Source: an uncultured Chlorobiales bacterium (GTDB lineage Bacteria > Bacteroidota > Chlorobiia > Chlorobiales > Chlorobiaceae). From it: a DNA stretch of 23,402 nt. This document shows, in pieces, positions 573-22,375 of the stretch. A program made the position numbers and the translations under genes. The notes beneath the pieces were generated by a model. That model was not told the DNA's origin. It made no database searches and was given only the letters and a program-made list of their open reading frames with translations. Each line of letters begins with the position of its first letter. Position 1 is the first letter of the stretch. The stretch covers positions 1-23,402 of the forward strand of contig CAIUQW010000059.1 of the NCBI GenBank assembly GCA_903901395.1. Reading direction: 5' to 3'.

Positions 573-2396
573 TCAAATCTGGTAATCCACGATGATCTCT
601 CGCAAGGTCAAGAGGTTGGCGATGCGTTCGATGGCTTCCACGATGTCCGAAATCTCTTCGAGATGCAGGTCGGGCGCGGCGTTCTGCAGATCATTCCGCC
701 CGACGGTGACGACAAGAATCTCATGCGGATCGTTCAGCAGCTTGAGCGTCGCGATGTCGTAATCGTCCGCGTCGTCGATGGCCGTGATGAAGATCATGCC
801 AGCATCGGTCATGATGCGGGCCAGTTCGCCAAGGCGGCGCAGGCGCTCCTCGACGTTTTTCTCGTTCACCCGGAGATCGGAATCGATCCCGTGCTCCATC
901 GTGGCCATGCCGAGATAATAGGTGCTGCAACCGTTTCTGAACAGCATGTTTTCAAGCTCCCGTGAAAGCGCGCGTTTTCCTGTACCGGGCGGGCCGGTGA
1001 TAACGATGAACTTCGAGCGGTGACGATTCACGCGCTCCCGCTCGACTGTCGGCACGGAGCCGGTCTCCCAGTGACGTTCGCGCTCGCGGATGTGGCGCTC
1101 CAGAAGCGTTTCGCCGCCGGAGAGGTTCTCAAGCACGATGCCGCCACCGGCGATTTCGTAGTTATCGACGATGACGAACCGGCCTGTCGTCTCGTTGCGC
1201 GAGGCGAGGTCGAAGGCGATGGGGCGCGTCGTTTCAAAAATGCACTCACCCACGTCACGGCAATCGAGCTGCTGCTTGCCCTGGCTGAGATTCAGCTCGG
1301 CGGCGTCGAGCGTATTGACGATCTCCGCCAGCCTGACCGTGGCGCGAGCCGTGCCGAGCTTGAGCTTGTACTCCTTCTCCTTCGACATCGGCACGCGACC
1401 CACCCAGAAGATGTTCGCCCTGAAGCGCGTGCCGACCTCGGGCAACAAATCGCCGGGGCGCACCATGATCTCGCCGGGTCGGATGTAAATCTGCGTCGAA
1501 AGCGTAAATCCGGCCGGCTCGCCCGCCGAAACCGCCTCCTTTCGCTCGGTGTTGAAGGATTCGATTGATTCGATCACCGACCGTTTGCCGGAGGGCAGAA
1601 ACAGCACCTCCTCGCTTTTGCGGATCGTGCCCGCCTCGATGGTTCCTGCCACGATCCGGCGGTCGTCGCCGGAGCCGGTGAACTTGTAGATGTCCTGCAC
1701 GGGAAGGCGGAACGGCTTTTCGTGCAGCTCGCGTCCGGTCGTGAAAAGATCGAGCTGGCCGAGCACCGTCGGCCCGTCATGCCACGGCATCGAGGCCGAG
1801 CGCTCCGCGATGTTGTCCCCCTCGCGCGCGCTGACGGGGATGAAGCTGACCGGTTCTACGTCAATCTGCCGGAGATACGCGGTGTATTCCGCCTTGAGCT
1901 TTTCGAACGCCTCCTCGCTGTAGCCGACCAGATCCATCTTGTTGACCAGCACCGTCACCTGCCGCACGCCAAGCATCGCGACCATGTGGCCGTGCCGCTT
2001 CGAGTTCTCGCGGATGCCCTCGTGGGCGTCGATGACGAGAAGGGCGGCTTCGGCCCGCGCCGCGCCGCTGATCATGTTCTTGAGGAACTCGATGTGGCCC
2101 GGCGCGTCGATGATGATGTAGTCGCGCGACGCGGTCTTGAAAAAGCAGCGAGCTGTGTCGATGGTGATCCCCTGCGCCTGCTCGTCCTTGAGCGCGTCGA
2201 GCAGAAAGGCGTATTCAAACGGGCGCGAGTTGCGCAGGCACGACTCGCGTACCGCTTCGAGCCGCCCCTCGGGCAGCGAGCCAGTGTCGGCAAGCAATCG
2301 CCCGATAACCGTGCTTTTGCCATGATCGACATGGCCGACGATGACGATATTCATTCTGGATCGCGACAGCACCCTGTCAATGGTTTCCGTACTCAT
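573..2396 (-). CDS. cysN: Sulfate adenylyltransferase large subunit CysN fused to a degenerate APS-kinase (CysC-like) domain
   Basis: CysN is the GTPase subunit that drives ATP sulfurylase (sulfate + ATP to APS) with CysD. The 607-residue protein shows the GTPase signatures GHVDHGKST (21-29), DAPGH (98-102) and NKMD (152-155), then elongation-factor-like beta domains to about residue 440. Residues 460-607 align with APS kinase: a P-loop GPPGTGK (468-474), HGIDSDL (502-508, resembling the family's HGLNRDL) and [14 protein letters not shown]. Key kinase residues are altered. The P-loop lysine is followed by Arg-Ala instead of Ser/Thr, and the family's DGD motif reads LGM (495-497). PAPS synthesis is therefore doubtful, which fits the APS-type CysH encoded nearby. 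It is the last gene of the operon, 95 bp after cysD. No strong Shine-Dalgarno precedes the ATG, but the start fits the family N-terminus. Confidence 0.93.
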
Positions 2397-2460
2397 CTGG
2401 TGTAAAGTGGTAAGTAATTCTTGATCGACAAACGACGTACTGTCCTGACGCGAAACGAGC

Positions 2461-2481
2461 CAGGCGAACGTCGTTTGCCTG
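2461..2481. other. Hairpin in the cysD-cysN gap
   Basis: Arms caggcgaac and gtttgcctg form a 9-bp stem (one G-T) with loop gtc, about 10 nt past the cysD stop. No T-run follows on the minus strand, so it looks like an intercistronic mRNA hairpin, perhaps affecting stability or partial termination, rather than a full terminator. The rest of the 95-bp gap shows nothing else. Confidence 0.4.
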
Positions 2482-2491
2482 ATGGGGATTT

Positions 2492-3370
2492 TTACATATA
2501 GCCGTCGCGGCGGAGGGTTTCCAGGCCGCCATCCTCCTTGTCCTGCGCTCTGCCGGAGCGCTCGGCGACATTGGCAAGCAGGCCGCTTTCAAGCTCCTCG
2601 ATGATCTCGCGCACGGTGCGTGACGGCGACTCGATCGGGTTGGTGCAGGGGGCGCAGCCAAGAGAGCGGTAGCGCGTGCCGCCGCCCTGGTTGAAGTAGA
2701 GCGAGACGATTGGAATATTCTCGCGTTCGATGTACTCCCAGATGTTCAGCTCCGTCCAGTCGAGCAGCGGGTGGATGCGCACGTGCGTGCCCGGCGCGAA
2801 GTCAGTTTTGAACTGGTTCCAGAACTCGGGCGGCTGGTCGCCCACATCCCAACTGTTCGCGCTGTCGCGCGGCGAGAAGTAGCGCTCCTTCGAGCGGCTC
2901 CCCTCCTCGTCCGCGCGAACGCCGACAATAACGCCCGTGAACGGCTCGCGCTTGTCGTCCGGCACGTAGCGCTTCAGCTCGTGATCCATCCGGTAGCGCG
3001 GCCACTCGCCCGAAAGCGTGCGCTTGAGCGCCTCGCTTTTGAGGTGACGGCAGCAGACGATCCGGTCGGTGTTGCCGTCGGGAAAGGTCTGCCGGGCATC
3101 GAGCGCCGCGCGGTTTTCGCCGTAGATCATGTTCAGATTCCACTCCAGCGCCACCCGATCGCGATAAGCGATCATCTCCGGAATCTTGTAGTGGGTGTCA
3201 ATGTGCACCAGCGGAATCGGCACGTGGCCGAAAAATGCCTTGCGGGCAAGCCAGAGCAGCACCGTGCTGTCCTTGCCGATAGACCACAACATGCAGAGAT
3301 TTTTAAACTCCCGGTACGCCTCCCTCAATATGTAAACGCTTTGTGCTTCGAGTTTGTCGAGATGGTTCAT
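2492..3370 (-). CDS. cysD: Sulfate adenylyltransferase small subunit CysD
   Basis: CysD is the catalytic subunit of ATP sulfurylase and makes APS from ATP and sulfate together with CysN. The protein has the PP-loop SIGKDS (residues 30-35 from the chosen start), the adjacent [12 protein letters not shown] helix, [11 protein letters not shown], and the C-terminal [14 protein letters not shown] stretch typical of CysD. The chosen ATG (3370-3368) gives 292 residues beginning [10 protein letters not shown] and has a good ribosome-binding site (aagga, about 9 nt upstream). An upstream start would overlap cysH and adds non-conserved residues. It starts 11 bp after the cysH stop, consistent with one transcript. 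Confidence 0.96.
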
Positions 3371-3381
3371 ACATCGGTTCC

Positions 3382-4104
3382 TTATCGTTGATGAGCGTGA
3401 GCGCTGTGCAGGCCGCACTCCTTGAGTTCAGGCTGTTCCCACCACCAGCGCCCGGCCCGGATATCCTCGCCCGGCTCGACAGCCCTGGTGCACGGCGCGC
3501 AGCCGATGCTCGGGTAGCCCTTGTCGTGCAGCTCGTTGTAAGGAACGTCGTGCTCCCGGATGTACTCCCAGATCCACTCTTCGCTCGCAAGCACCAGCGG
3601 GTTGAGCTTGAAGAGGCCGAAGGTTTCGTCCCACTCGACCAGTTCGAGCTGCTTGCGCGTCACCGACTGGCTCCGGCGCAAACCGCAAATCCACGCCGAG
3701 AGCGTCGAGAGCTTGCGCGACAGCGGTTCGACTTTGCGGGCGCGGCAGCACAACCGGCGGTTTTCGATGCTTTCGTAGAAGAGGTTCGGCCCGTGCTCGC
3801 TCTGCATCTTCTGAACCGTTTCGGCCTCGGGGAAGAGCACCTCGATTGAAATTCCGTAGCGGCGTCTCGTGTCATCGAGCACACGGTAGGTCTCTTCTGG
3901 AAGCCGCCCCGTGTCGAGGGTAAAGACAGGCACTGGAAGGCCCTGCTGCCAGAGAATGTCGGTGATGACCTGATCCTCCGCGCCAAGACTTGTCGAGAAG
4001 GCGATATTTTCTTCGCCGAAATAGGTCAATGCAAGGTTGATCGCCTCCGCGGGTGACGCTCCGGCCCATGCAGCGTTGAGTGTTTGCGCTCTTTCTATGC
4101 TCAT
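3382..4104 (-). CDS. cysH: Adenylylsulfate (APS) reductase CysH, [4Fe-4S] type
   Basis: It reduces activated sulfate to sulfite using thioredoxin- or glutathione-type thiols. The 240-residue protein has a PP-loop-like STSLGAEDQ (37-45), the Cys pair CC at 119-120 and GCAPC (Cys202, Cys205). These four cysteines form the [4Fe-4S] site that marks APS-using reductases; enzymes that require PAPS usually lack them. The catalytic KECGLH motif (Cys230) lies near the C-terminus. The substrate is therefore most likely APS itself. This matches the crippled APS-kinase domain on CysN. The gene lies 39 bp after the sulfite reductase stop and 11 bp before cysD. The Shine-Dalgarno is weak (aaag). Confidence 0.95.
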
Positions 4105-4143
4105 AATACTTTGATGGTTGCTGGTTTTGTGATGGTTGATTCA

Positions 4144-5055
4144 CTATTTCTCGACGCGCTGCAACGCGCCTTCAAGAATCTCCTCCCTGACGATGTCGAG
4201 TCCGAGCCGGTCGATCGTGTGGCCGAAACGCTCTTTTTTCCGCCCATGCTCGCAATAGAAGGCAATCGCGCTTTCGACAAGCGCCAGCACCTCAGCCTCC
4301 GTTTCGACGAGCGGGTTCAGCACCGAGGCGAAGCGCGGAATTTTGCCCATCGTGCCGCCGATCAGCACCGAATAGCCGCTCCGGGCCGCAATCCACGAGC
4401 CTGTCGGGCACATCGAGGTGCAGACGCTGCAATTGATGCAACGCTCCTCGTCCACTTCGTACCGGAATCCCTCCGCCGCCTGCTGGTCATCCCGGCGCTC
4501 GATCACTTTCACCGGGCAGAACGAGAGACAGTGGCCGCAATCGGTGCAGCCCGCCGCTTCCCAGCGCGGCTCTATAGCTCCGCGAATGCCGATGTCGTTC
4601 TCGTTGGCCTTGGTGCAGTTATGGGCGCAACCGGTGACGGAAATCTTGAACTTCGATGGCGTCTCCCGCTTGAAGTGGCGCTCGTCGAGTTCACGCGCAA
4701 GCTGCTTGGTATCGATGACGCCCCACTTGCAGGTCTCCGCGCCGGGGCAGGCAAGGATGCCCCGGACGCGCGGCCCGCAAGCGCCCATCTCCACGCCCGC
4801 TTCCGCAAGCGCGAGTTTGGCGTCGTCGAGATCATCCTTGTGGACATGGTGAATTTCAACCCCCTGACGGGTGGAGAGGTGCACGACTCCTTTGCCGTAC
4901 CGCTCGGCAACCTCGGCTATCGCGGCAAGCTGAAAGGAGGAGAGATCGCCCGCAAGCGCTTTGAGGCGCATCACATACAGCTCCGGCTGCGTCAGTTTCA
5001 TCATCCCGATCCGGTCGGGCGCAGGCTGCTTCACGTTGTTTACTTGTTCTGACAT
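4144..5055 (-). CDS. Siroheme sulfite reductase with fused 2x[4Fe-4S] ferredoxin domain (AsrC/Dsr-like)
   Basis: It is predicted to reduce sulfite to sulfide with six electrons in the cytoplasm. From the chosen ATG (5055-5053) it has 303 residues. Siroheme/[4Fe-4S] ligands are CPGAETC (Cys103, Cys109) and CAHNC (Cys143, Cys147). An inserted ferredoxin module carries CTDCGHCLSFCP (170-181) and CINCSVCTSMCP (206-217). This layout matches AsrC and small dissimilatory-type reductases, not the large CysI. No asrA, asrB, cysI or cysJ is nearby, so electrons probably come from reduced ferredoxin. I chose this start because MSEQVNNVK is preceded by a purine-rich aagagag; extending further upstream would translate the tRNA-Cys gene. 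It is the first protein gene of the operon, 57 bp after the tRNA. Confidence 0.88.
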   Translation of the reverse strand: MSEQVNNVKQPAPDRIGMMKLTQPELYVMRLKALAGDLSSFQLAAIAEVAERYGKGVVHLSTRQGVEIHHVHKDDLDDAKLALAEAGVEMGACGPRVRGILACPGAETCKWGVIDTKQLARELDERHFKRETPSKFKISVTGCAHNCTKANENDIGIRGAIEPRWEAAGCTDCGHCLSFCPVKVIERRDDQQAAEGFRYEVDEERCINCSVCTSMCPTGSWIAARSGYSVLIGGTMGKIPRFASVLNPLVETEAEVLALVESAIAFYCEHGRKKERFGHTIDRLGLDIVREEILEGALQRVEK

Positions 5056-5112
5056 GGCATTGCTCTCTTTTCGATTCTGTGATTCCCATTTCATCAGCGT
5101 TTCTCGCTTTGC

Positions 5113-5187
5113 GGCGACGGCAAGATTCGAACTTGCGACAATCAAAGGTTTTGCAGACCCTGGTTTCAACCCCTCACCCACGTCGCC
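5113..5187 (-). tRNA. tRNA-Cys (anticodon GCA), atypical
   Basis: A cloverleaf can be drawn on the minus strand. The acceptor is GGCGACG/CGTCGCC (7 bp), followed by T8 G9. The D-stem is GGT/ACC with A14 and GG. The anticodon stem AGGGT/ACCTT encloses loop CTGCAAA, with GCA at 5154-5152. The T-stem GCAAG/CTTGC encloses loop TTCGAAT. Oddities are no spare base 26 if a 5-bp anticodon stem is drawn, an 8-nt variable region (normally 4-5), a G at the discriminator position where tRNA-Cys normally has U, and no encoded CCA. It faces the same way as the sulfite reductase and cysHDN genes and is the first element of that cluster. It could be a specialised or decaying tRNA-Cys. Confidence 0.82.
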
Positions 5188-5238
5188 CTATTTGTTGTGC
5201 GTTATCAACGACGATCAACGCGCCCAATAAAACACGAA

Positions 5239-5263: not shown

Positions 5264-5293
5264 CATACAAATACCGTAAAGATGGTACGCGGG
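5259..5293 (-). repeat. 35-bp intergenic repeat, copy A
   Basis: This tract matches 6874-6908 at 30 of 35 positions without gaps, both containing ataccg, ggtacgcggg and cctacca. A small hairpin (tacc...ggta) lies within it. It sits immediately beside a TCTTGTG-family hairpin. The remaining spacer from 5294 to 5478 is AT-rich and shows no gene. Confidence 0.75.
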
Positions 5294-5478: not shown

Positions 5479-6063
5479 TCATTTCCAAGCATTGTGTCTT
5501 CTTAAGAAAGCAAGAGCATTTTCATATCCAAGCCATTTAAGATATTTTTCTACAACATCTTGATACAATGCTAACCTCCTCACATAATATAACGCATGAG
5601 GATCAAAGTCTTCACCCAGTGCCACACCAATTTTTATCGAATGACCTGCTCGCTCAAAATAATAGAATAAGTTATCAAAACATCTACGCACAAAAACATC
5701 TTTCGGTTCATGGCTTTCTTCAGTAATCTCATTTCCAACAACGACTAATCGCAACGCATTCGGAATATCTTCACTCCCATTAATATCATATTGTGGACCG
5801 TCCCCTAATTTATATACGCCTTTCCCCTCATCGATTAACATCATTGCTATACCAGATGGCTTCCAATCGAACCATTCATCTGTCAATCGACGAGCAAGTT
5901 CCGCTTGCTTCCAGCGACGTTCATCCCGCTGTTGTTTTAATGCAGTATTCCATTGCAAAAGCGCAACAACTGCCGTAATAAAACCAGCCAGAACAACAAC
6001 AGTTGAAGATATTTCTTGCCATTGGTATGCTGCGATTGCATTTGATTCAAGGGAAAATAACAT
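5479..6063 (-). CDS. Membrane-anchored hypothetical protein
   Basis: A 194-residue protein of unknown function. Residues 18-38 (STVVVLAGFITAVVALLQW region) form one clear transmembrane helix. It is followed by a charged, probably helical stretch (KQQRDERRWKQAELARRLTDEW), a layout common in single-pass anchors with a cytoplasmic helical domain. The C-terminal half is soluble and alpha-rich. The gene is markedly AT-richer than the sulfur genes on either side, and its start has no Shine-Dalgarno, both consistent with recent acquisition. It stands alone between repeats and gene debris. I do not recognise the family with certainty. Confidence 0.65.
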   Translation of the reverse strand: MLFSLESNAIAAYQWQEISSTVVVLAGFITAVVALLQWNTALKQQRDERRWKQAELARRLTDEWFDWKPSGIAMMLIDEGKGVYKLGDGPQYDINGSEDIPNALRLVVVGNEITEESHEPKDVFVRRCFDNLFYYFERAGHSIKIGVALGEDFDPHALYYVRRLALYQDVVEKYLKWLGYENALAFLRRHNAWK

Positions 6064-6381: not shown

Positions 6382-6708
6382 TCATGCATCGGCGGATTTG
6401 CGTTTCGGCTCCAGCTTGATCACCAAATCGCAGCCAACGGCTTCGGCGTATTTTCTCAGCGTGGCGATGGATGGCGCGTGCTGGCTGCCGCCTTCGAGTC
6501 TGGAGATCGCGCTTTTGGTCGTGCCGATTTTGCTGGCAACCGCTTCCTGCGTCATGCCGGACTTCTTTCGCGCTTCAAGCAGCTCCCGGATCAGCGCATA
6601 CTTTGGCTCAAGCGCTTCATATTCCCTGCGGAACTCCTCATCCTCAAGATCCTTCTGGATCTCTGCCTTAACATCATATCGTACCGGCTGATAAGTCAGG
6701 TCATCCAT
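6382..6708 (-). CDS. XRE-family helix-turn-helix protein, HigA/RelB-like orphan antitoxin
   Basis: A 108-residue DNA-binding protein. The acidic N-terminal half (KAEIQKDLEDEEFRREYEALEP) resembles toxin-binding tails. It is followed by a classic HTH_3 domain (RKKSGMTQEAVASKIGTTKS, about residues 48-67, then AISRLEGG...PSIATLRKYAEAVG). Such proteins repress their own operon and neutralise RelE/HigB mRNA-cleaving toxins. A strong Shine-Dalgarno (aggagg, 7 nt before ATG) fixes the start. In this family the toxin gene lies just upstream and often overlaps; here only a 23-codon stump remains at 6701-6772, so the antitoxin appears orphaned. Confidence 0.85.
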   Translation of the reverse strand: MDDLTYQPVRYDVKAEIQKDLEDEEFRREYEALEPKYALIRELLEARKKSGMTQEAVASKIGTTKSAISRLEGGSQHAPSIATLRKYAEAVGCDLVIKLEPKRKSADA

Positions 6709-6873: not shown

Positions 6874-6908
6874 CCTACCACAGAAATACCGGAAACACGG
6901 TACGCGGG
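6874..6908 (-). repeat. 35-bp intergenic repeat, copy B
   Basis: Ungapped match to 5259-5293 at 30 of 35 positions. Here the internal hairpin is perfect (taccg/cggta). It lies 59 bp ahead of the trans-sulfuration gene and 100 bp past the toxin stump. The two copies bracket the accessory patch 5294-6873. Confidence 0.75.
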
Positions 6909-6967: not shown

Positions 6968-8110
6968 ATGCATTTTGAAACGCTTGCCATCCATGACGGA
7001 AATACGCCTGAAAAGAGCGCCGGATCGGTGACTCCGCCGGTTTACCAGACTTCGACCTTTGCGCGGCCCAGCCTCGACGAGCGGGGGGAGTTCTTCTATT
7101 CGCGCATCGGCAACCCGACGCGCTCGGCGCTCGAAACGACGCTCGCGCTACTTGAAAACGGCAGACACGCAACGACCTTCGCCTCCGGCGTGGCGGCGAT
7201 GATGGCCGCGATGCAGGTGCTCAGGCCGGGCGATCATGTCGTCTCCAGCCTCGACGTGTATGGCGGCAGCTATCGCATTTTCGAGCAGCTCATGCGCCCG
7301 TGGGGTGTCGAAACCTCATACGCTGCGAGCGAGGCGACGGAGAGCTATGTGGCGTGCATCCGCCCGGAGACCCGCATGATCTGGGTCGAAACGCCATCGA
7401 ATCCGCTCCTGCAACTCTGCGACCTCCGCGCCCTTGCCGCAATCGCCAGCGAGCGAGGCATCGTGCTCGCCGTGGACAACACCTTCGCCAGCCCCTACTT
7501 CCAGAGGCCGCTCGACCTCGGGGCGCACCTCGTCGTGCACAGCACCACCAAGTACCTCGGCGGCCACAGCGACGTCATCGGCGGCGCGGTCATCGCGACG
7601 GACGACAAGCTGCACCACGCCGTCCGGAACTACCAGGGCGCGGCGGGGGCGATTCCCGGCCCGTGGGATTGCTGGCTCGTCTCTCGCGGCATCAAGACGC
7701 TGAAGATCCGCATGGAGGAGCACCAGAAAAACGCGCTGCATCTGGCCCGAGCGCTCGAAAAGCATCCGGCGGTGAGCCGCGTGCTCTACCCCGGACTGGA
7801 GTCGCACCCACAGCACGAGCTGGCAAAATCGCAGATGAGCGGCTTCGGCGGAATGCTCACCATCGCGCTCCGGGGCGGACTTCCGGCGGTTCGGAAGATG
7901 CTCGGCGCCCTGAAGCTCTTCGTCATCGCCGACAGCCTCGGCGGCGTGGAGTCGCTCGTCGCCTCCCCGGCGCTCATGACGCTTGGCCCATTGAGCCGGG
8001 AGGAGAAGCTGCGGCGCGGCTGCACCGACGACTTGGTGCGGCTCTCGATTGGCCTCGAAAACGCGGAGGATCTCGAAGCGGACCTCATGCAGGCACTTGC
8101 AACTATCTAA
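6968..8110 (+). CDS. PLP-dependent trans-sulfuration enzyme (cystathionine gamma-synthase/lyase family)
   Basis: The 380-residue protein belongs to the Cys/Met metabolism PLP-enzyme family. It shows the N-terminal signature AIHDGN...PPVYQTSTF, the YSRIGNPTR segment, [10 protein letters not shown], and the PLP-binding lysine in [12 protein letters not shown] (Lys195). Length is typical. Members interconvert cystathionine, homoserine esters, cysteine and homocysteine. Sequence reading alone does not settle synthase (MetB) versus lyase (MccB). The cysK gene 11 bp downstream supports a role in cysteine/methionine sulfur exchange. Start chosen at the family N-terminus; the Shine-Dalgarno is poor. 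Confidence 0.92.
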
Positions 8111-8121
8111 ACTGTAACGAC

Positions 8122-9054
8122 ATGGCCATCATCCCGAACATCACGAGCACTATCGGACGCACGCCGCTGGTGCGGCTCAACAAGCTCTCTGCGGGCCTCG
8201 ACGCAGATATTCTGCTCAAGCTCGAATTCTTCAATCCGCTCGGCAGCGTGAAGGATCGCATCGGGCGGGCCATGATCGAAGCCGCCGAAGCGGAGGGGAA
8301 AATCGACGCGAAAACGCTCATCGTCGAGCCGACCAGCGGCAACACCGGCATCGCGCTCGCCTTCGTCTGCGCCGAGCGCGGCTACCGGCTGCTGCTCACC
8401 ATGCCCGAAACCATGAGCGTAGAGCGGCGCAAACTGCTGCGCTACCTCGGCGCGGAGCTGGTGCTCACCCCCGGCTCGAAAGGGATGAAGGGGGCCATCG
8501 AGGAGGCGGCGCGGATCGTTGAGGCTGAAAAGAACAGCTTCAACCCCGGCCAGTTCAGCAATCCGGCCAACCCCCGTATACATCAGGCGACCACCGGCCC
8601 CGAAATCTGGAACGATACCGAAGGCCGGGTGGATATGCTCGTCTCAGGCGTTGGCACGGGCGGCACTATCACCGGAACCTCGCGCTTCATCAAGGCGCTG
8701 AAGCCCGGCTTCAAAAGCATCGCCGTGGAACCAGCAGCATCGCCGGTGCTCTCGGGCGGACAGCCGGGTCCGCACAAAATCCAGGGGATCGGCGCGGGCT
8801 TCGTGCCAGAGGTGCTCGACGTGTCGCTGATTGACGAAGTGGCGGCGGTGAGCAACGAAGACGCCATCTCGACCGCCCGGGCGCTCGCCGTTGAGGAGGG
8901 CATCCTTTGCGGGATCTCCTCCGGCGCGGCGGTTCACGCGGCCATTGAGGTTGCCAGGCGCTCCTCGTCGGCAGGCAAAACCATCGTCGCCATCATCCCG
9001 AGCACCGGCGAACGCTACCTCAGCACCGACCTGTTCGCGGGCATAGAGGCGTGA
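8122..9054 (+). CDS. cysK: Cysteine synthase (O-acetylserine sulfhydrylase)
   Basis: It makes cysteine from O-acetylserine and sulfide. The 310-residue protein has the PLP lysine in [11 protein letters not shown] (Lys44), the PTSGNTG substrate loop (70-76), [10 protein letters not shown] (176-185) and GISSGAA near the C-terminus, all in family positions and at family length. The ATG 11 bp after the preceding stop gives [17 protein letters not shown], the usual start; the same frame stays open further upstream but only inside the previous gene. It is co-directional with the trans-sulfuration gene. It is the natural sink for sulfide made by the divergent sulfate operon. Confidence 0.96.
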
Positions 9055-9720: not shown

Positions 9721-10500
9721 ATGGATTCACTTCGCTTAGGCTCATATACCTTCTCATCGCGCCTGATTCTCGGCACCGGCAAATTCAGCAGCGCTTCGGC
9801 GATGATCGAAGCCGTCCGCGCTTCGGGCACGCAGCTCGTGACGGTCGCCCTGCGGCGCTTCAATCGCGAACAGCTGGAGGATGATCTTTTCGGCCCGCTG
9901 TCGGAAATCGAGGGGCTGACGCTGATGCCCAACACCTCCGGCGCTGCCACGGCGCGTGAAGCCGTCAAGGCGGCTCGCATCTCGCGCGAGCTTTCCGGCA
10001 GCCCCTTCATCAAGGTGGAGATTCATCCGAATCCGCACCACCTTATGCCCGACCCCATCGAGACCTACGAGGCGTGCAAGATTCTCGCCGCTGAAGGGTT
10101 CATCGTCATGCCTTACATCCCGGCTGACCCGGTGCTCGCCAAGCGGCTCGAAGAGGTAGGATGCAGCTCGGTGATGCCGCTCGGCTCAGCCATCGGCAGC
10201 GGGCAGGGTCTGTCGACCGCCGAGATGGTGAAGCTGATCATCCGCGAAAGCAACATTCCGGTGATTGTCGATGCGGGATTGCGCTCCCCGTCGGAAGCGT
10301 GCGCGGCGATGGAGATGGGGTGCGAGGCGGTGCTGGTCAACAGCGCAGTGGCGGTGGCCCGCAATCCGGCGGCGATGGCAAGCGCTTTCGCCAAGGCGGT
10401 CGAGGCGGGATTCGAGGCGCGCAACGCCGGTTTGATGCCCCGCTCGGGCGCGGCGGTCGCGACAAGCCCGCTCACCTCGTTCCTCGGAGCGGCCTCATGA
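9721..10500 (+). CDS. thiG: Thiazole synthase ThiG
   Basis: It condenses 1-deoxyxylulose-5-phosphate, dehydroglycine and the ThiS thiocarboxylate into the thiazole phosphate of thiamin. The 259-residue TIM-barrel protein has [16 protein letters not shown], the Schiff-base lysine in [10 protein letters not shown] (Lys98), [11 protein letters not shown] and [29 protein letters not shown]. Length is normal. The stop overlaps the thiH start (ATGA). The Shine-Dalgarno is weak, so the true start is set by homology. Confidence 0.96.
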
Positions 10501-11564
10501 GTTCGCTGCCCGCATGGCTGACGGACGAACGGCTCTCGGCGGACATCGAGCCGCTGCTCCGGCAAACGGACGCTGAATCGCTCGAACGGCTCGCCGCCGA
10601 AGCGCAGGCGGTCACGTTGCGGCGTTTCGGGCGCATCATTTCGCTCTACGCGCCGCTCTACCTCTCCAACTTCTGTTCGAGCGGCTGCGTCTATTGCGGC
10701 TTCGCGTCGGACAGAAAGTCGCCGCGCCGCAAGCTCGATGTCGGCGAGATCGAAAAGGAGCTGATGGCGATGAAAGTGCTCGGCATCGGCGACGTGCTGC
10801 TTTTGACCGGCGAGCGCACCGCGGCGGTGGGATTCGACTATCTGCGCCGCGCCGTCGAAATCGCCGCCCGGCACATGCCGCGCGTGGCGGTCGAGGCGTT
10901 TCCGATGAGCGTCGCCGAGTATCGCGGCTTGGCCGAGTGCGGCTGCACCGGCATCACGATCTACCAGGAGACCTACGACCCCGCCAATTATCGCGATCTG
11001 CACCGCTGGGGGCCGAAGCAGGATTTCCTCGAAAGGCTCGAAACGCCGGAACGCGCCATCTCAGGCGGCATTCGCAGCGTCGGCATCGGGGCGCTCCTCG
11101 GCCTTTCGGAGCCGGTCGGCGAAGCGCTCGCCGTGTTGCGTCACGCGCGGCATCTGTGCAAGACGTACTGGAAGGCGGGCGTCTCGGTCTCGTTCCCGCG
11201 CATCCGCCCGCAGGAGGGCGGCTTTCAGCCCAGCTTCACGGTGTCGGATCGATTCCTCGCGCGGATGATCTTCGCCTTCCGCGTCGGAATGCCGGATGTC
11301 GATCTGGTGCTTTCGACTCGCGAGAGTTCGGCGTTTCGGGACGGCATGGCGGGCCTCGGCATCACCCGCATGAGCATCGCCAGCCGCACGACCGTGGGCG
11401 GCTACGTCGCGGCGGACGCCACGAGCGCGAGCCAGTTCGAGGTGTGCGACGGCCGGAGCGCCGAAGCCTTCTGCGCCGCGTTGCGAGCCAAAAATCTCGA
11501 CCCGGTCTTCAAGAACTGGGACGCTGCCTACAACAACCCGCTCGCCTCGGAGGCGTCGGCATGA
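10497..11564 (+). CDS. thiH: 2-iminoacetate synthase ThiH (radical SAM)
   Basis: A radical-SAM tyrosine lyase that makes dehydroglycine for ThiG. The 355-residue protein has the cluster motif CSSGCVYC (Cys60, Cys64, Cys67; CX3CX2C), [22 protein letters not shown] and [11 protein letters not shown], which are diagnostic of ThiH. The start ATG overlaps the thiG stop and its own stop overlaps thiF in the same ATGA fashion, so the three genes are probably translationally coupled. Confidence 0.96.
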
Positions 11565-12310
11565 GCCTCGGCGACGAGCAGCGCCAGCGCTACGCCCGCC
11601 ACCTCGCGCTGCCGGAAATCAGTGAGGCCGGGCAGGAGAAGCTGCTCCGCTCGAAGGTGCTGGTGATCGGCGCGGGCGGCCTCGGCTCCCCGGTGGCCTT
11701 CTACCTCGCGGCGGCAGGCGTCGGCACGATTGGCATTATGGACGGCGACACAGTCGATCTCTCCAACCTGCAACGCCAGATTCTGCACACCACCGCCTCG
11801 GTCGGCGCGAACAAAACCGCCTCGGCGCAAGAGCGCCTCGAAGCGCTCGATCCCGCAATCCGCATCGAGCCATACCCGTTCCGCCTGAGCGCCGACAACG
11901 CGCCGGAGATTCTCGCCGGATACGACTTCGTCATCGACGCCACGGACAATTTCGACTCGAAATTCCTCATCGCCCGCGCCTGCCACGAAGCGAAAAAACC
12001 TTACTCCCACGCCGGCATCCGCAACTTCCACGGCCAGACCATGACTGTCCTCCCCGGCCAAACCGCCTGCTACCGCTGCATCTTCCACGAAGACGGCGCA
12101 CCGAAAAACGCCATTCCACAAGGCCCAATCGGCGCACTCCCCGGCATCATCGGCTCCATTCAGGCCATCGAAGCGATCAAATACTTGCTCGGTATTGGAA
12201 CGCTGTTGACCGACGCGCTTCTGACGTTCGACGCGCTTGCGATGAACTTCCGCAAAGTCGCGGTGAGGCGCGATCCTGGGTGTGCGTTGTGCGGGGTGAG
12301 AAGCGATTGA
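11561..12310 (+). CDS. thiF: ThiF/MoeB-family adenylyltransferase
   Basis: An E1-like enzyme that adenylates the C-terminus of ThiS. The 249-residue protein has VIGAGGLGSPVA (nucleotide loop), DGDTVDLSNLQRQ, and a zinc site CYRC (170, 173) plus CALC (241, 244). The conserved cysteine found in many homologues before AGxxGxxPG is missing: the region reads NAIPQGPIGALPG, with Ala at the expected place. This residue is dispensable in some family members. Context (thiSGH) favours ThiF over MoeB, though one protein may serve both. Degenerate copies of its 3' end occur downstream at 13381-13450, 13471-13526 and 18432-18540. Confidence 0.92.
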   Translation: MSLGDEQRQRYARHLALPEISEAGQEKLLRSKVLVIGAGGLGSPVAFYLAAAGVGTIGIMDGDTVDLSNLQRQILHTTASVGANKTASAQERLEALDPAIRIEPYPFRLSADNAPEILAGYDFVIDATDNFDSKFLIARACHEAKKPYSHAGIRNFHGQTMTVLPGQTACYRCIFHEDGAPKNAIPQGPIGALPGIIGSIQAIEAIKYLLGIGTLLTDALLTFDALAMNFRKVAVRRDPGCALCGVRSD

Positions 12311-12312
12311 CG

Positions 12313-12534
12313 CGAGAGGATTTCTTTGAAAATCCGGCGTATTCTTCGTACATAGAGCTTTAAGCCTCCCCTACAGGCTTGTGCACATCATGCCGATCAG
12401 CATAATTGATCCTGTACCCCATGACTGACCTGTCAAAGATATATCCGCGCCTTCTGGCTAAGATCAAGGAGCGCGTTCGATCCGCGCAGTACGAAGCTCT
12501 CAAGTCCGTCAACAAGGAGCTTGTCGGACTGTAT
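12313..12534 (+). repeat. Duplicated segment, copy 1 (5' flank and first codons of DUF1016 gene)
   Basis: Aligns nearly without gaps with 14952-15169, at roughly 85 percent by eye. It begins 2 bp after the thiF stop. Before the DUF1016 start it contains a frame ending DFFENPAYSSYIEL-stop; the other copy has DLLENRAYSSPIEL-stop at the same place, so the tail of another coding sequence was probably duplicated too. Confidence 0.75.
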
Positions 12535-13339
12535 TGGGATATTGGACGGATGATCGTAGAACGGCAAGCTGATGCCGAGCATGGATCGTCCATTGCCGAA
12601 CAACTGTCCTGTGATCTCAGGCAGGTGTTTCCCGGAATCACTGGCTTTTCGCGTAGGAACATCTATCTTTTATATGCGGGAGTTTTACCTGCGCATGACC
12701 CGCAAGTTTGGCTGGTCGAAGAACGTGTTCATTCATCAGATCGGCAACCTGAGCTACGAAAAGTCTCTGCTGGGGCAGAGCAATTTCGACAAGGCCCTCA
12801 CGCCGGAACTTCGCGCGCAGGCAAAGCTTGCGGTGAAAGATGAATACACATTCGATTTTCTGGAGTTGGCCGAAGAGCACAGCGAGCGCGAGCTGGAGCG
12901 GGCGCTGATTGGAAAGGTAGAGGAGTTCCTGCGTGCAATGGGTGGCGCGTTCGCCTTCATGGGCAGCCAGTACCTGCTCGAAGTGGATGGCGATGAGTAC
13001 AGTATCGATCTGCTTCTTTTTCACCGGCGGCTCAGGGCGCTGGTCGCTATCGAGCTGAAGATCGGCAAATTCATGCCGGAGTTCGTCGGTAAAATGCAGT
13101 TTTACCTGACAGCACTTGACCGGCAGGTTCGTCAGGAGGACGAAAATCCGTCCATTGGCATCATCCTGTGCAAGGATAAAAACCGCACTGTGGTGGAATA
13201 CGCTCTGCACGATACCGGAAAGCCGATCGGCGTGGCGACCTACGAAATTACCAGAACGCTTCCCAAGGAGCTTCACGGCCAATTGCCTACGCCACAAGAG
13301 ATTGCGCGTCTGCTGGAGGGAATTGAGGGGAAAGGGTGA
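12421..13339 (+). pseudogene. Disrupted DUF1016 (YhcG-type) PD-(D/E)XK nuclease gene
   Basis: Begins MTDLSKIYPRLLAKIKERVR and follows the DUF1016 N-terminal domain to GFSRRNI. A frameshift near 12661-12670 then moves coding to the frame reading FYMREFYLRMTRKFGW, which continues through the PD-(D/E)XK domain to the stop at 13339. The nuclease core looks intact: EYSIDLLLF (catalytic Asp) and AIELKIG (Glu-x-Lys), then ILCKDKNRTVVEYAL. About 45 codons normally between REFYL and the RMTRKFGW segment appear missing, probably deleted across a repeated REFY(L/M) motif. Family members are nucleases linked to recombination, restriction or toxin-like loci. Confidence 0.8.
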
Positions 13340-19819: not shown

Positions 19820-22375
19820 ATGTGTCCTCCCGATCCGACGAACCCACTCGCCCCGCAAACAGAAACCAAGGCCCCTATTGCCCAAACAGACGCCAAGGAT
19901 ACCGGTGCGCAAGCATCGAACTCAGGAAATGCCACAGCGCCACCAAAAGCTGCATCTCAGACAACGGCAGGCGCTTGGCTGAGTAAAAATCAGGCGGCCA
20001 CTTACATCCAGCGTTTTCAGGATGCCGGGTATGATGATCTGTCGGATATGCTTCCCGACGTGATCAGAACCGTGCTTCAGGGCGAGAAGCCGGGCGTTGT
20101 CGATCGCCTGGTTCGCATTCGCACCGAGGAGCTTCGCCAGCCGCAGCCGCTTCCGCCGCCGGCGCTGAAACCGGGAATGGAAATGGATCTTTCCGCTCCC
20201 GTTCTGAAAGGCATGGATGGCGTATCCATCAAGCTGCCCGATCTCGGCGTCGCGCCTGATGCGCAGCAACGTCAGCCGGTCGTCTCCGCCGCTTCCCTGA
20301 CCAATGAAGAGTGGTTGGCGCTGGCGATAAACAGCGATATGCTCATGGGTCTCGATCTCGAAAATTTTTTTGAGGGAGCATCGAGTACGCCGCAGGAGTG
20401 CTTCGCGCCTGCATTGTGGTGGAAGGTGCCGGATTCGAGAGAGTTCTTCAACTGCGAGCATCTCTCCGCGAAAATCAATACCGAAATCACCTACACCTCG
20501 AAATCGGCCACCATGGTTTCGGCGGGCTTCACGGCCGTTACGGCGAGCGTTTCCACCCCGTGGGTGAGCGCTTCGGTCTCGCACGAGCGAAGCTACAAGG
20601 AGGCGCAGTCGAGCAAGAAAAGCACGCTCTATATTGTCGGAACGTACGATCTTGACCGCGTCAGGGTTGACCTCGATCAGTGCACCGTCGTGTCGCCGAG
20701 ATTCGTGAGCGCAGTTGAAAACGCTCTTGCCGATACCAATCCCAAGGAGGCGCTGACTCAGGTTTTTCAGAAATACGGGCAGATCATCGGAAAGCAGGTC
20801 ACGCTTGGCGGACGCCTCTTTTTTATACAGGCAAAAGAGGAGATGGAGAGTTCAAAAGTCGAAACGCTGAAGAGCACCACTTCGGCGGCCATTGCCGGGG
20901 CATACGGAGCCTTCGGCGGGTCGGCAAGCGCTTCGTTCGGCTCTTCGTCGGAAAAGCAGGAGAGCAGCATGAACATGAATGAACGGATCGCTTTCCAGGC
21001 GGTCGGCGGAGATGTCACGCTTGCCAACAAGCCCGAAGAGTGGAAGGACACCATCAAATCTCCAGCCATGTGGGAGGTCATCCGTTACGACAGGATTCGC
21101 TATACCTATGAGCTTCTGAGTCCGGAATTGCAGGAACTCGTTCTGTTATACTGGGAACGCCCGATGGGCAATGACGAAGGGCCGATTGTGCTACCGGTCA
21201 TCAAGATGGAGATGACGAAGGCGGCGGATGGCGTTGCCATAACCGGCTTCAAGCTCAGTTTCGGACAGAAAGTGGCCGGTCTTTCCATGCAATACTGGGC
21301 AACGTCGCAGGACGGCAGCGTCAAGTCCGACTGGATCAAGGAGGGAAAACTCTGCGGCACGCAGAACAGCGGCTCATCGCCGATTCAGGAGTTTCTCATC
21401 GAGCTGACCGGCGGCCTTTCCAAACGATACGAACTGCACTATCGCGCCCTTCGTGCCGACAACAATACCTATACCGACTGGGTGAGCGGCAAAGAAGTCT
21501 GCGGTGTCAAAGGTATGAAAATCAAGGATATACAGGCGGTGCTCTCTCCATTGGGAGGTGGCGTGCTGCGGATTCCCGCTGAATCGTTCATCCCGAGCGA
21601 GAGCAAAGGGACGTTCGACATCGGCAAGTACGGCCCTGGTATCGTCTGCGCGAACATTCCGGGCGAGTGGGCATTGACCTACCAGTGCCAGTACACCGGC
21701 TCCAAACCGGTAAGGCGGCGGCTCGAAGCGCTCTTCACATCGGCTGAAAACCGCCCTGTCAAGGTCGAGTTCAACGGGGAGATCGTCAATGGCGCGGCGC
21801 TTGAATACGCCACGGGAGCGTGGGATACCAGCGGTCTGCGCACAGCGAGAATCGGAACCGTCTCTCTGCAACCGGGCATGAACACCCTGAAGATCAGCAG
21901 GCCCGGCCCCTGGTCGCCGCATATGAAAGAGTTCAGGCTGATTGCCGAAGTGGTCGATATTCCGGCGACATCGTTCATCGGAAATCCTCCGATCAACAAG
22001 AATGGCAGCTATGGCGCTGGCGTCATCATCAGCAGCAGTGTTCCTCTTTCGGCGGATTATGAGTTCACCTTCACAGGGAAAAAACCGACAACGTTACTGC
22101 TTGAAGGCGTTTACACGGCAGCAGACAAGCGCCCGGTGGAAATCGTCATCAACCCCGACGATGCGGTGCCGCAAACATTTTCCAACGTTTTGGCCACGGT
22201 CACCGGAAGCTGGTATAAAGACAGGCAGACTGTGGAATCCATCGGCGAGGTGGTCGTTCGTCCGGGCAAGAACACGCTCAGGCTCCGCAAGAAGGATGGG
22301 CCTATTCCTCATATCCAGGAGTTCCGTCTGGTATCGAAAGAGCCGTTCTTCGATTTCGATCCTGACGCTAACTGA
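19820..22375 (+). CDS. MACPF/perforin-like protein with SAM-like N-terminal domain and two C-terminal repeat domains
   Basis: The protein has 851 residues. Residues 1-50 are a Pro/Thr/Ala/Gln-rich linker without a signal peptide. About 52-104 (WLSKNQAATYIQRFQDAGYD onward) look like a SAM-type helical domain. About 180-435 fit a MACPF domain: the signature-like YGQIIGKQVTLGG (319-331), flanked by two Ser/Ala/Gly/Thr-rich amphipathic stretches (about 228-262 and 350-385) where membrane-inserting hairpins are expected. About 457-565 is a beta-rich domain with evenly spaced Trp and Cys. Residues 584-709 and 713-839 are repeats of each other (IPAxSFI..., ENRPVKVEF/DKRPVEIVI, LQPGMNTLKI/VRPGKNTLRL, KEFRLIAE/QEFRLVSK), probably carbohydrate-binding-like jelly rolls. 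The likely role is a pore-forming effector or adhesin-type toxin. The start has no strong Shine-Dalgarno, but a TAG lies three codons upstream. Confidence 0.8.
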   Translation: MCPPDPTNPLAPQTETKAPIAQTDAKDTGAQASNSGNATAPPKAASQTTAGAWLSKNQAATYIQRFQDAGYDDLSDMLPDVIRTVLQGEKPGVVDRLVRIRTEELRQPQPLPPPALKPGMEMDLSAPVLKGMDGVSIKLPDLGVAPDAQQRQPVVSAASLTNEEWLALAINSDMLMGLDLENFFEGASSTPQECFAPALWWKVPDSREFFNCEHLSAKINTEITYTSKSATMVSAGFTAVTASVSTPWVSASVSHERSYKEAQSSKKSTLYIVGTYDLDRVRVDLDQCTVVSPRFVSAVENALADTNPKEALTQVFQKYGQIIGKQVTLGGRLFFIQAKEEMESSKVETLKSTTSAAIAGAYGAFGGSASASFGSSSEKQESSMNMNERIAFQAVGGDVTLANKPEEWKDTIKSPAMWEVIRYDRIRYTYELLSPELQELVLLYWERPMGNDEGPIVLPVIKMEMTKAADGVAITGFKLSFGQKVAGLSMQYWATSQDGSVKSDWIKEGKLCGTQNSGSSPIQEFLIELTGGLSKRYELHYRALRADNNTYTDWVSGKEVCGVKGMKIKDIQAVLSPLGGGVLRIPAESFIPSESKGTFDIGKYGPGIVCANIPGEWALTYQCQYTGSKPVRRRLEALFTSAENRPVKVEFNGEIVNGAALEYATGAWDTSGLRTARIGTVSLQPGMNTLKISRPGPWSPHMKEFRLIAEVVDIPATSFIGNPPINKNGSYGAGVIISSSVPLSADYEFTFTGKKPTTLLLEGVYTAADKRPVEIVINPDDAVPQTFSNVLATVTGSWYKDRQTVESIGEVVVRPGKNTLRLRKKDGPIPHIQEFRLVSKEPFFDFDPDAN

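Follow-up and report, generated by a model that had tools for sequence, protein, structure and literature searches.

The contig CAIUQW010000059.1 of an uncultured Chlorobiales bacterium (assembly GCA_903901395.1; 23,402 nucleotides, called the window below and meaning this whole stretch) carries a tRNA-Cys(GCA) gene immediately ahead of a sulfate-to-sulfide operon of sulfite reductase, cysH, cysD and cysN. Judging from sequence comparison, we consider it somewhat more probable than an even chance that this gene represents a conditionally made, sulfur-regulated, trans-acting second tRNA-Cys of sulfate-assimilating green sulfur bacteria. The cell would probably make the second tRNA mainly when it builds its own cysteine. 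In this model, a promoter marked by the palindrome TACC-N8-GGTA would drive a transcript in which the tRNA comes first, the palindrome serving as operator for a sulfur or cysteine regulator. The tRNA would be cut out by RNase P and 3' processing, so that the reductase-cysHDN mRNA keeps only a short leader. Once free, the tRNA would work in trans when reduced sulfur is short and cysteine is built from sulfate, be it as a dedicated Cys isoacceptor or as a tRNA-Cys-like RNA. Use under sulfur shortage and in trans is suggested by the shared site, by tRNA copies in other sulfur units and by retention of the tRNA without the reductase.

The sole tRNA called by both ARAGORN and Rfam at 5111..5187, on the minus strand, is Cys(GCA). 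With 47.7 bits, it is the weakest among the 38 tRNA matches of its own genome (an assembly of 2.53 Mb in 457 contigs, 77.8% complete). An earlier note on this DNA had placed a tRNA-Cys(GCA) 57 bp ahead of the reductase; the gene and its position stand, and the gap to the reductase ATG (5055) measures 55 nt, or 56 nt counted from the discriminator. A count of the other tRNA-Cys genes in the genome, which that note had proposed, yields one further, ordinary gene with U73 and an encoded CCA. In a DNA search, a near-copy of this ordinary gene is found in 60 of the 61 family genomes. By its sequence, the window tRNA is thus a second, divergent tRNA-Cys beside the ordinary one. The exception is genome G018, for which neither this search nor the 30 tRNA loci retrieved show a canonical tRNA-Cys. 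We rejected G018 as proof that the special tRNA suffices, since its Gln(CTG) and Gly(GCC) tRNAs are likewise missing and an assembly gap is equally likely.

All genes of the operon lie on the minus strand together with the tRNA, as previously described. The first is a siroheme sulfite reductase with NIR_SIR and Fer4 domains (4144..5055), which scores 126 bits against an AsrC cut-off of 324 and is therefore AsrC-like rather than a called AsrC. It is followed by cysH (3382..4104), encoding an adenosine 5'-phosphosulfate (APS) reductase at 253.5 bits against the APS-reductase cut-off of 235.3; by cysD (2492..3418, probable start 3370), the sulfate adenylyltransferase small subunit, which passes NF003587; and by cysN(C) (573..2396), which has an APS-kinase-like C-terminal stretch and stays below the CysN cut-offs.

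The tRNA recurs next to sulfur genes in relatives, which answers the conservation check suggested at the outset. In the bacterium's own genus, 11 of 21 genomes have the reductase, and in all 11 the tRNA lies directly upstream (10 intact copies and a relic in G022); of the 10 genomes without reductase, 2 retain the tRNA. Across the 61 family genomes, the tRNA is present in 36/39 genomes with the reductase versus 5/22 without (Fisher p 3.9e-8), or in 34/39 versus 5/22 if 2 relics are scored absent (p 7.1e-7), these counts being made on related genomes. DNA matches to the tRNA family were obtained in 41/61 family genomes, 2 of them relics only. Class-wide, 58/98 genomes have the tRNA, all in one family (58/86) and 0/12 outside, and a pattern scan of genome contigs returned 63 stretches, all with Chlorobiota titles and nearly all Chlorobiaceae or Chlorobiales. 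Within the genomes searched, matches to the tRNA family are thus found in Chlorobiaceae only, a family in which sulfate assimilation is patchy. They include Chlorobium ferrooxidans DSM 13031 (locus L123), where a family tRNA lies approximately 360 nt ahead of the reductase start; this adds to a remark in PMC5498476 that photoferrotrophic Chlorobi generally have no tRNAs close to these cassettes. In 2 other loci (L101 of G050 and L104 of G049), the reductase match carries one internal TGA.

Deduplication leaves 67 distinct tRNA loci, which fall into 3 contexts plus the loci of G008 and G016, 2 relatives that lack the reductase, and into 2 classes according to the discriminator nucleotide, G73 as in the window or U73. 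In context A, the tRNA stands ahead of reductase-cysHDN, at 45–80 nt in 12 G73 loci and at 94–99 nt in 3 U73 loci (distances in both classes run to the start of the aligned stretch). Context B has the order DUF4395-tRNA-metY, with the tRNA 53–63 nt before metY in 11 G73 loci; the cluster also contains a response regulator, then cysK and cysE, although some contigs end early. Its O-acetylhomoserine sulfhydrylase and cysteine synthase A score over their cut-offs, and its serine acetyltransferase is below the CysE cut-off and just over that of EpsC. Context C comprises 39 loci whose acceptor is of the GGCGATG or GGCGGTG type; all are U73 except L131, which is G73, leaving 38 U73 loci. In 34/39, a gene lies upstream that we label porin-like from the look of its protein, which has no Pfam or NCBIfam match; it ends approximately 100–120, 180–260 or 290–300 nt before the tRNA. 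The reductase is downstream in 14/39 within the stretch seen, in 12 of these within 1 kb, and 19/39 type C tRNAs begin at most 3 nt from a T-run that is apparently the terminator of the preceding gene. Two of the 3 contexts thus represent further sulfur units, or genes that share the operator-like site, which speaks for the proposed sulfur-regulated tRNA. Tandem second tRNA copies are present behind the porin-like gene in L075 (5489-5564), L076 (2801-2877) and L074, 2 of them with ARAGORN anticodons CTA and AAA.

The operator-like palindrome, TACC-N8-GGTATTT, lies upstream of the window tRNA on the minus strand (5266..5289, pattern 5269-5287; 31.4 bits), and a second copy, also read on the minus strand, is 63 nt before metB(-cysK) (6881..6904, pattern 6884-6902; 27.0 bits). 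Allowing at most 1 mismatch, these are the only 2 matches in the own genome, both exact, and a reversed control pattern gives 1. After removal of loci with less than 250 nt upstream and of repeated upstream stretches, 45 distinct reductase upstream regions were left, and the site is found in 42 of them, being absent from L058, L035 and L132. The tRNA stands between this palindrome and the start codon in 13 of the 42 (10 G73, 3 U73), where the palindrome is found at -220 to -278; the remaining 29 have it at -106 to -210, in most cases around -150. Leaders with the tRNA are therefore longer by about one tRNA (approximately 80 nt). Four leaders with the site at -187 to -210 hold possible tRNA remnants, and that of G022 is a clear relic. 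In 11 context C loci, the reductase's own site lies downstream of the tRNA.

We then scanned 400 nt upstream of other genes with a matrix derived from the reductase regions (threshold 9 bits or more). While the count for the reductase itself (39/42) is circular, the matches at porin-like, cysK, metB and binding-protein genes are independent. The site precedes 30/33 porin-like and 30/36 cysK genes, and none of 41 cysH, 37 cysD, 21 cysN, 34 response regulator and 14 cysE genes. The rows for MetY (10/50), MetBwin (10/49) and CysKwin (29/40) include homologue cross-hits and are not used as counts. No site of at least 15 bits occurs in 164.6 kb around other tRNAs of 2 genomes. In 6 relatives, a shorter pattern has 29 matches versus 8 for the control; the neighbours include sulfate-binding proteins over the curated cut-off, an SsuA-like protein just below it, cysK, porin-like genes, metB and the reductase, and also genes of no evident sulfur role. 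A common site therefore stands upstream of both the tRNA and sulfur genes, and we infer that it is the putative operator of a sulfur regulon that includes the tRNA.

Between site and tRNA, 38 nt before the latter, the motif TTTTATT (5226..5232, minus strand) forms a putative -10 box. A T-rich box at +54 to +56 from the site start is detected with strict patterns in 21/42 loci, compared to a background of 0.06 per comparable stretch. Taken as the -10 element, this box would make the tRNA the first gene of the reductase transcript. With the shared site and the longer leaders, the tRNA very probably stands at the head of a sulfur-regulated transcript. A separate terminator between tRNA and reductase, named beforehand as an argument against such co-transcription, is not listed in a sequence-level terminator scan. 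As the pairing is conserved in relatives too, neither half of the refutation that the earlier note had set out came true at sequence level. A terminator-like hairpin does occur upstream of the tRNA (5260-5237). We discarded it as an attenuator since, by eye, it is present in L081 and L120 alone among the leaders examined, and it sits between the site and the putative -10 box. Some asrC leaders of relatives, e.g., L210 and L212, have a second palindrome, TTAACGATYGTTAA, right behind the T-rich box.

The window tRNA has a cloverleaf with GCA anticodon and retains G2-C71 and C3-G70. It carries G73 instead of the discriminator U73, lacks nucleotide 26, has a variable loop of 8 and ends in C74 without an encoded CCA. 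The last is not a special trait, given that about two thirds of 33 distinct own-genome tRNAs examined end in N73-C. G73 is found in the window and the 24 distinct sequences of its class (2 of them degenerate), and U73 in 15 distinct relatives and the own canonical tRNA-Cys. In the G73 class, the D region is one nucleotide short in 24/24 and the variable loop measures 5–9 nt (8 nt in 12/24); the 15 distinct U73 sequences have nucleotide 26 in the parse used and a variable loop of 5; L131 is exceptional. Over the 24 distinct sequences, acceptor stem, T arm, D region and anticodon loop (23/24) are near-invariant, the upper anticodon stem varies, mostly in the metY context, and flanks and variable loop change freely. 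Table 1 of PMC9976931 gives U73, G2-C71, C3-G70 and GCA among the bacterial Cys identity elements. The G73 class without nucleotide 26 would therefore be charged by a tolerant cysteinyl-tRNA synthetase (CysRS) or would no longer be a normal Cys acceptor. A single CysRS scores over cut-off in 58/61 genomes, while G040 has two and both G030 and G058 have none, so that no second CysRS is available to explain G73. RNA-dependent cysteine synthesis was dropped as well: neither SepRS nor SepCysS is over cut-off in any of the 61 family genomes, compared to 2 of 14 control genomes. The proposed link between tRNA-Cys supply and sulfate assimilation finds partial support in the conserved pairing with the pathway, while G73 leaves simple Cys supply uncertain.

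Of the alternatives, a tRNA-like leader that acts in cis is possible, but we regard it as unlikely. It would control the operon from within the mRNA, for example by mimicking a tRNA to bind CysRS, in the manner of the thrS operator, or by offering RNase P/RNase Z a place to cut and thereby determining how stable the mRNA is. Such a role is consistent with the same-orientation position close before the reductase (12 G73 loci) and metY (11 loci), with acceptor and T arm being near-invariant and the upper anticodon stem not, and with the relic in the metY leader of G045 (L235/L215), where the middle is deleted and the anticodon arm lost but acceptor and T arm are kept. However, the anticodon loop is near-invariant too, tRNA-free reductase leaders are common, and in copies behind porin-like genes the tRNA precedes the site that belongs to the reductase. 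Moreover, G008 and G016 retain site-tRNA units without any reductase, so that the tRNA is not found only in cis to a gene that it could control. The tRNAs of these 2 genomes are 100% identical over 76 nt, whereas the upstream 175 nt are 87.4% identical and the downstream 150 nt 45.5%, versus 46.3% for shuffled sequence. By our estimate, the chance of 76 unchanged nucleotides at the upstream divergence is 0.874^76, or approximately 4e-5, which makes this identity improbable unless the tRNA is under selection. Approximately 20 nt behind the G008 tRNA lies a hairpin (AGCCTCC-TAATTC-GGAGGCT) with T-tract, in a 55-nt stretch with a folding energy of -26.6 kcal/mol; a terminator scan of L061 does not list this hairpin, probably because the T-tract pairs with an A-tract. 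The copies outside the reductase leader and the G008/G016 units favour, we suggest, a trans-acting role. For the cis sensor proposed in the earlier note, the reductase leaders devoid of tRNA, the metY and porin-like copies and the reductase-less site-tRNA units are difficult to accommodate; all of these point to trans.

Slightly less credible is a hitch-hiking duplicate in decay, i.e., a surplus tRNA-Cys duplicated together with the operon, kept by chance and partly a pseudogene. G73, the loss of nucleotide 26 and the weak anticodon stem would suit this explanation, as would the several reductase genomes that have no tRNA and the relics in G045 and G022 (L098/L213; a reductase leader in which the middle is deleted and the acceptor stem kept). 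Less sure are the remnants in the reductase leaders of G042, which beats 100/100 shuffles, and of G027, G039 and G055, which are weaker and below the best shuffle; all 4 genomes carry tRNA family copies elsewhere. A remnant in L053 also beats shuffles but aligns poorly. Decay is, however, difficult to reconcile with 24 distinct sequences in which the acceptor, the T arm, the D region and the anticodon loop hardly vary while flanks and variable loop are free to change, with identical tRNAs in G008 and G016 despite 12.6% upstream divergence, and with 3 recurrent contexts.

We are also doubtful about a variant in which a tRNA-Cys lineage was recruited into the sulfur regulon and normal Cys identity was lost in the G73 class that lacks nucleotide 26. 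Regulated, and either uncharged or carrying something else, this GCA tRNA would now tune the reading of Cys codons or sense cysteine supply during life on sulfate. Very improbable in our view is an outright change of identity, with the G73 class charged with another amino acid, serine being the most obvious candidate, and inserting it at Cys codons under sulfur shortage. G73, C72, G2-C71, R4-Y69 and G30-C40 are listed as Ser elements in Table 1 of PMC9976931, G73 and the acceptor pairs fit, and the variable loop is enlarged to 5–9 nt. The same list, however, also has a large variable arm and C11-G24, whereas no variable-arm stem is recognised here and 11-24 is G-C. Finally, a chance neighbour, the null hypothesis of the earlier note, can practically be dismissed: 4 of 28 other own-genome tRNAs tested also have a same-strand open reading frame (ORF) of at least 120 aa at most 70 nt downstream, showing that the spacing by itself is not rare, but because the tRNA is linked to sulfur genes throughout the family and has the site that they share upstream of it, the recurrent pairing is, on comparative grounds, more than chance.

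Several observations weigh against a sulfur-regulated, trans-acting second tRNA-Cys. On a CysRS tree of 59 genomes with 8 independent reductase differences, the tRNA differs in the same direction in 3.3 on average, in the opposite direction in 0, and shows no difference in 4.7; after phylogenetic control, the genome-level co-occurrence is suggestive and not significant. The reductase genomes G005, G021, G046, G022 and G045 have no intact family tRNA, indicating that the tRNA is dispensable. By the reported identity elements (Table 1 of PMC9976931), G73 is a loss of the main Cys determinant. As to regulation, the T-rich box is found by strict patterns in no more than 21/42 loci, and a generic sigma-70 scan lists no promoter at the tRNA leader. 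In G008, G016 and others, it may be the divergent metB that uses the site. In the metY cluster, the site precedes DUF4395 in just 2/33, and the metY-context copies may lie outside the regulon. Members of this context also decay, with the deletion in G045, a changed anticodon loop in G063 and acceptor or T-loop changes in G064 and G009.

On the other side of the tRNA operon, the window contains a divergent metB-type cystathionine synthase/lyase gene (6968..8110, plus strand) and, behind it, a cysK-type PALP enzyme (8122..9054, plus strand). Two minus-strand genes lie between the tRNA operon and metB, one without family match (5479-6063) and one for an XRE-type helix-turn-helix protein (6382-6708); in the loci of relatives that were seen, metB is much nearer to the tRNA. 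After metB-cysK, the plus strand carries thiG-like, radical SAM/BATS (thiH-like) and ThiF/MoeB adenylyltransferase-like genes (9721-12310), followed by a YhcG-type PDDEXK nuclease split into 2 overlapping ORFs in different frames (12406-13339), perhaps by a frameshift. Further downstream, also on the plus strand, is a gene for an 851-aa protein with Pfam matches to MACPF and fungal MACPF-like domains (19820-22375).

tRNA genes are usually seen as housekeeping genes; here, the anticodon matches the end product of the pathway, and the gene stands behind that pathway's own predicted switch. Two questions can now be tested: does the cell tune a single tRNA to how much of a single amino acid is available, and can a CysRS accept a tRNA without U73? 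Our literature search, with subscription journals mostly outside its reach, found no description of this association of tRNA-Cys and sulfur genes. In the E. coli tRNA-tufB operon, tRNAs come first and a protein gene follows in one transcript, but those tRNAs are unmatched to a pathway product, whereas the anticodon of the window tRNA fits its pathway, with which it also has a nutrient-type site in common. T-box leaders and the tRNA-mimic operator of thrS are cis elements that tie a tRNA or tRNA shape to the control of amino acid genes. They are not tRNA genes, whereas here a whole tRNA gene recurs outside the reductase leader. Additional, structurally odd tRNA-Cys genes beside the ordinary one are described in PMC7609411 for the selC* tRNA-Cys and allo-tRNAs; those have a tRNA-Sec-like 8/4 shape, keep U73 and in some cases come with their own SelB or CysRS copy, whereas the window tRNA has a 7 bp acceptor, a 5 bp T stem and G73, and a second CysRS over cut-off is found in G040 alone. 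The closest precedents found are the tRNA-Cys genes of SepRS/SepCysS operons and a Bacillus cereus pseudo-tRNA, and neither fits. The latter, tRNA-Other (PMC3399842), is likewise a tRNA-like gene outside normal translation that responds to a nutrient (iron) and is present in longer transcripts, but it occurs as one element, next to a genomic island, in the B. cereus group and is not reported to be tied to the amino acid pathway of its own anticodon. The SepRS/SepCysS-linked tRNA-Cys genes of Mukai et al. 2017 (PMC5424206) likewise belong to, or neighbour, an operon that forms cysteine, at times together with genes of sulfur metabolism; that system makes cysteine on the tRNA, whereas the genes linked to the tRNA here, in genomes with no SepRS or SepCysS over cut-off, make free sulfide and cysteine.

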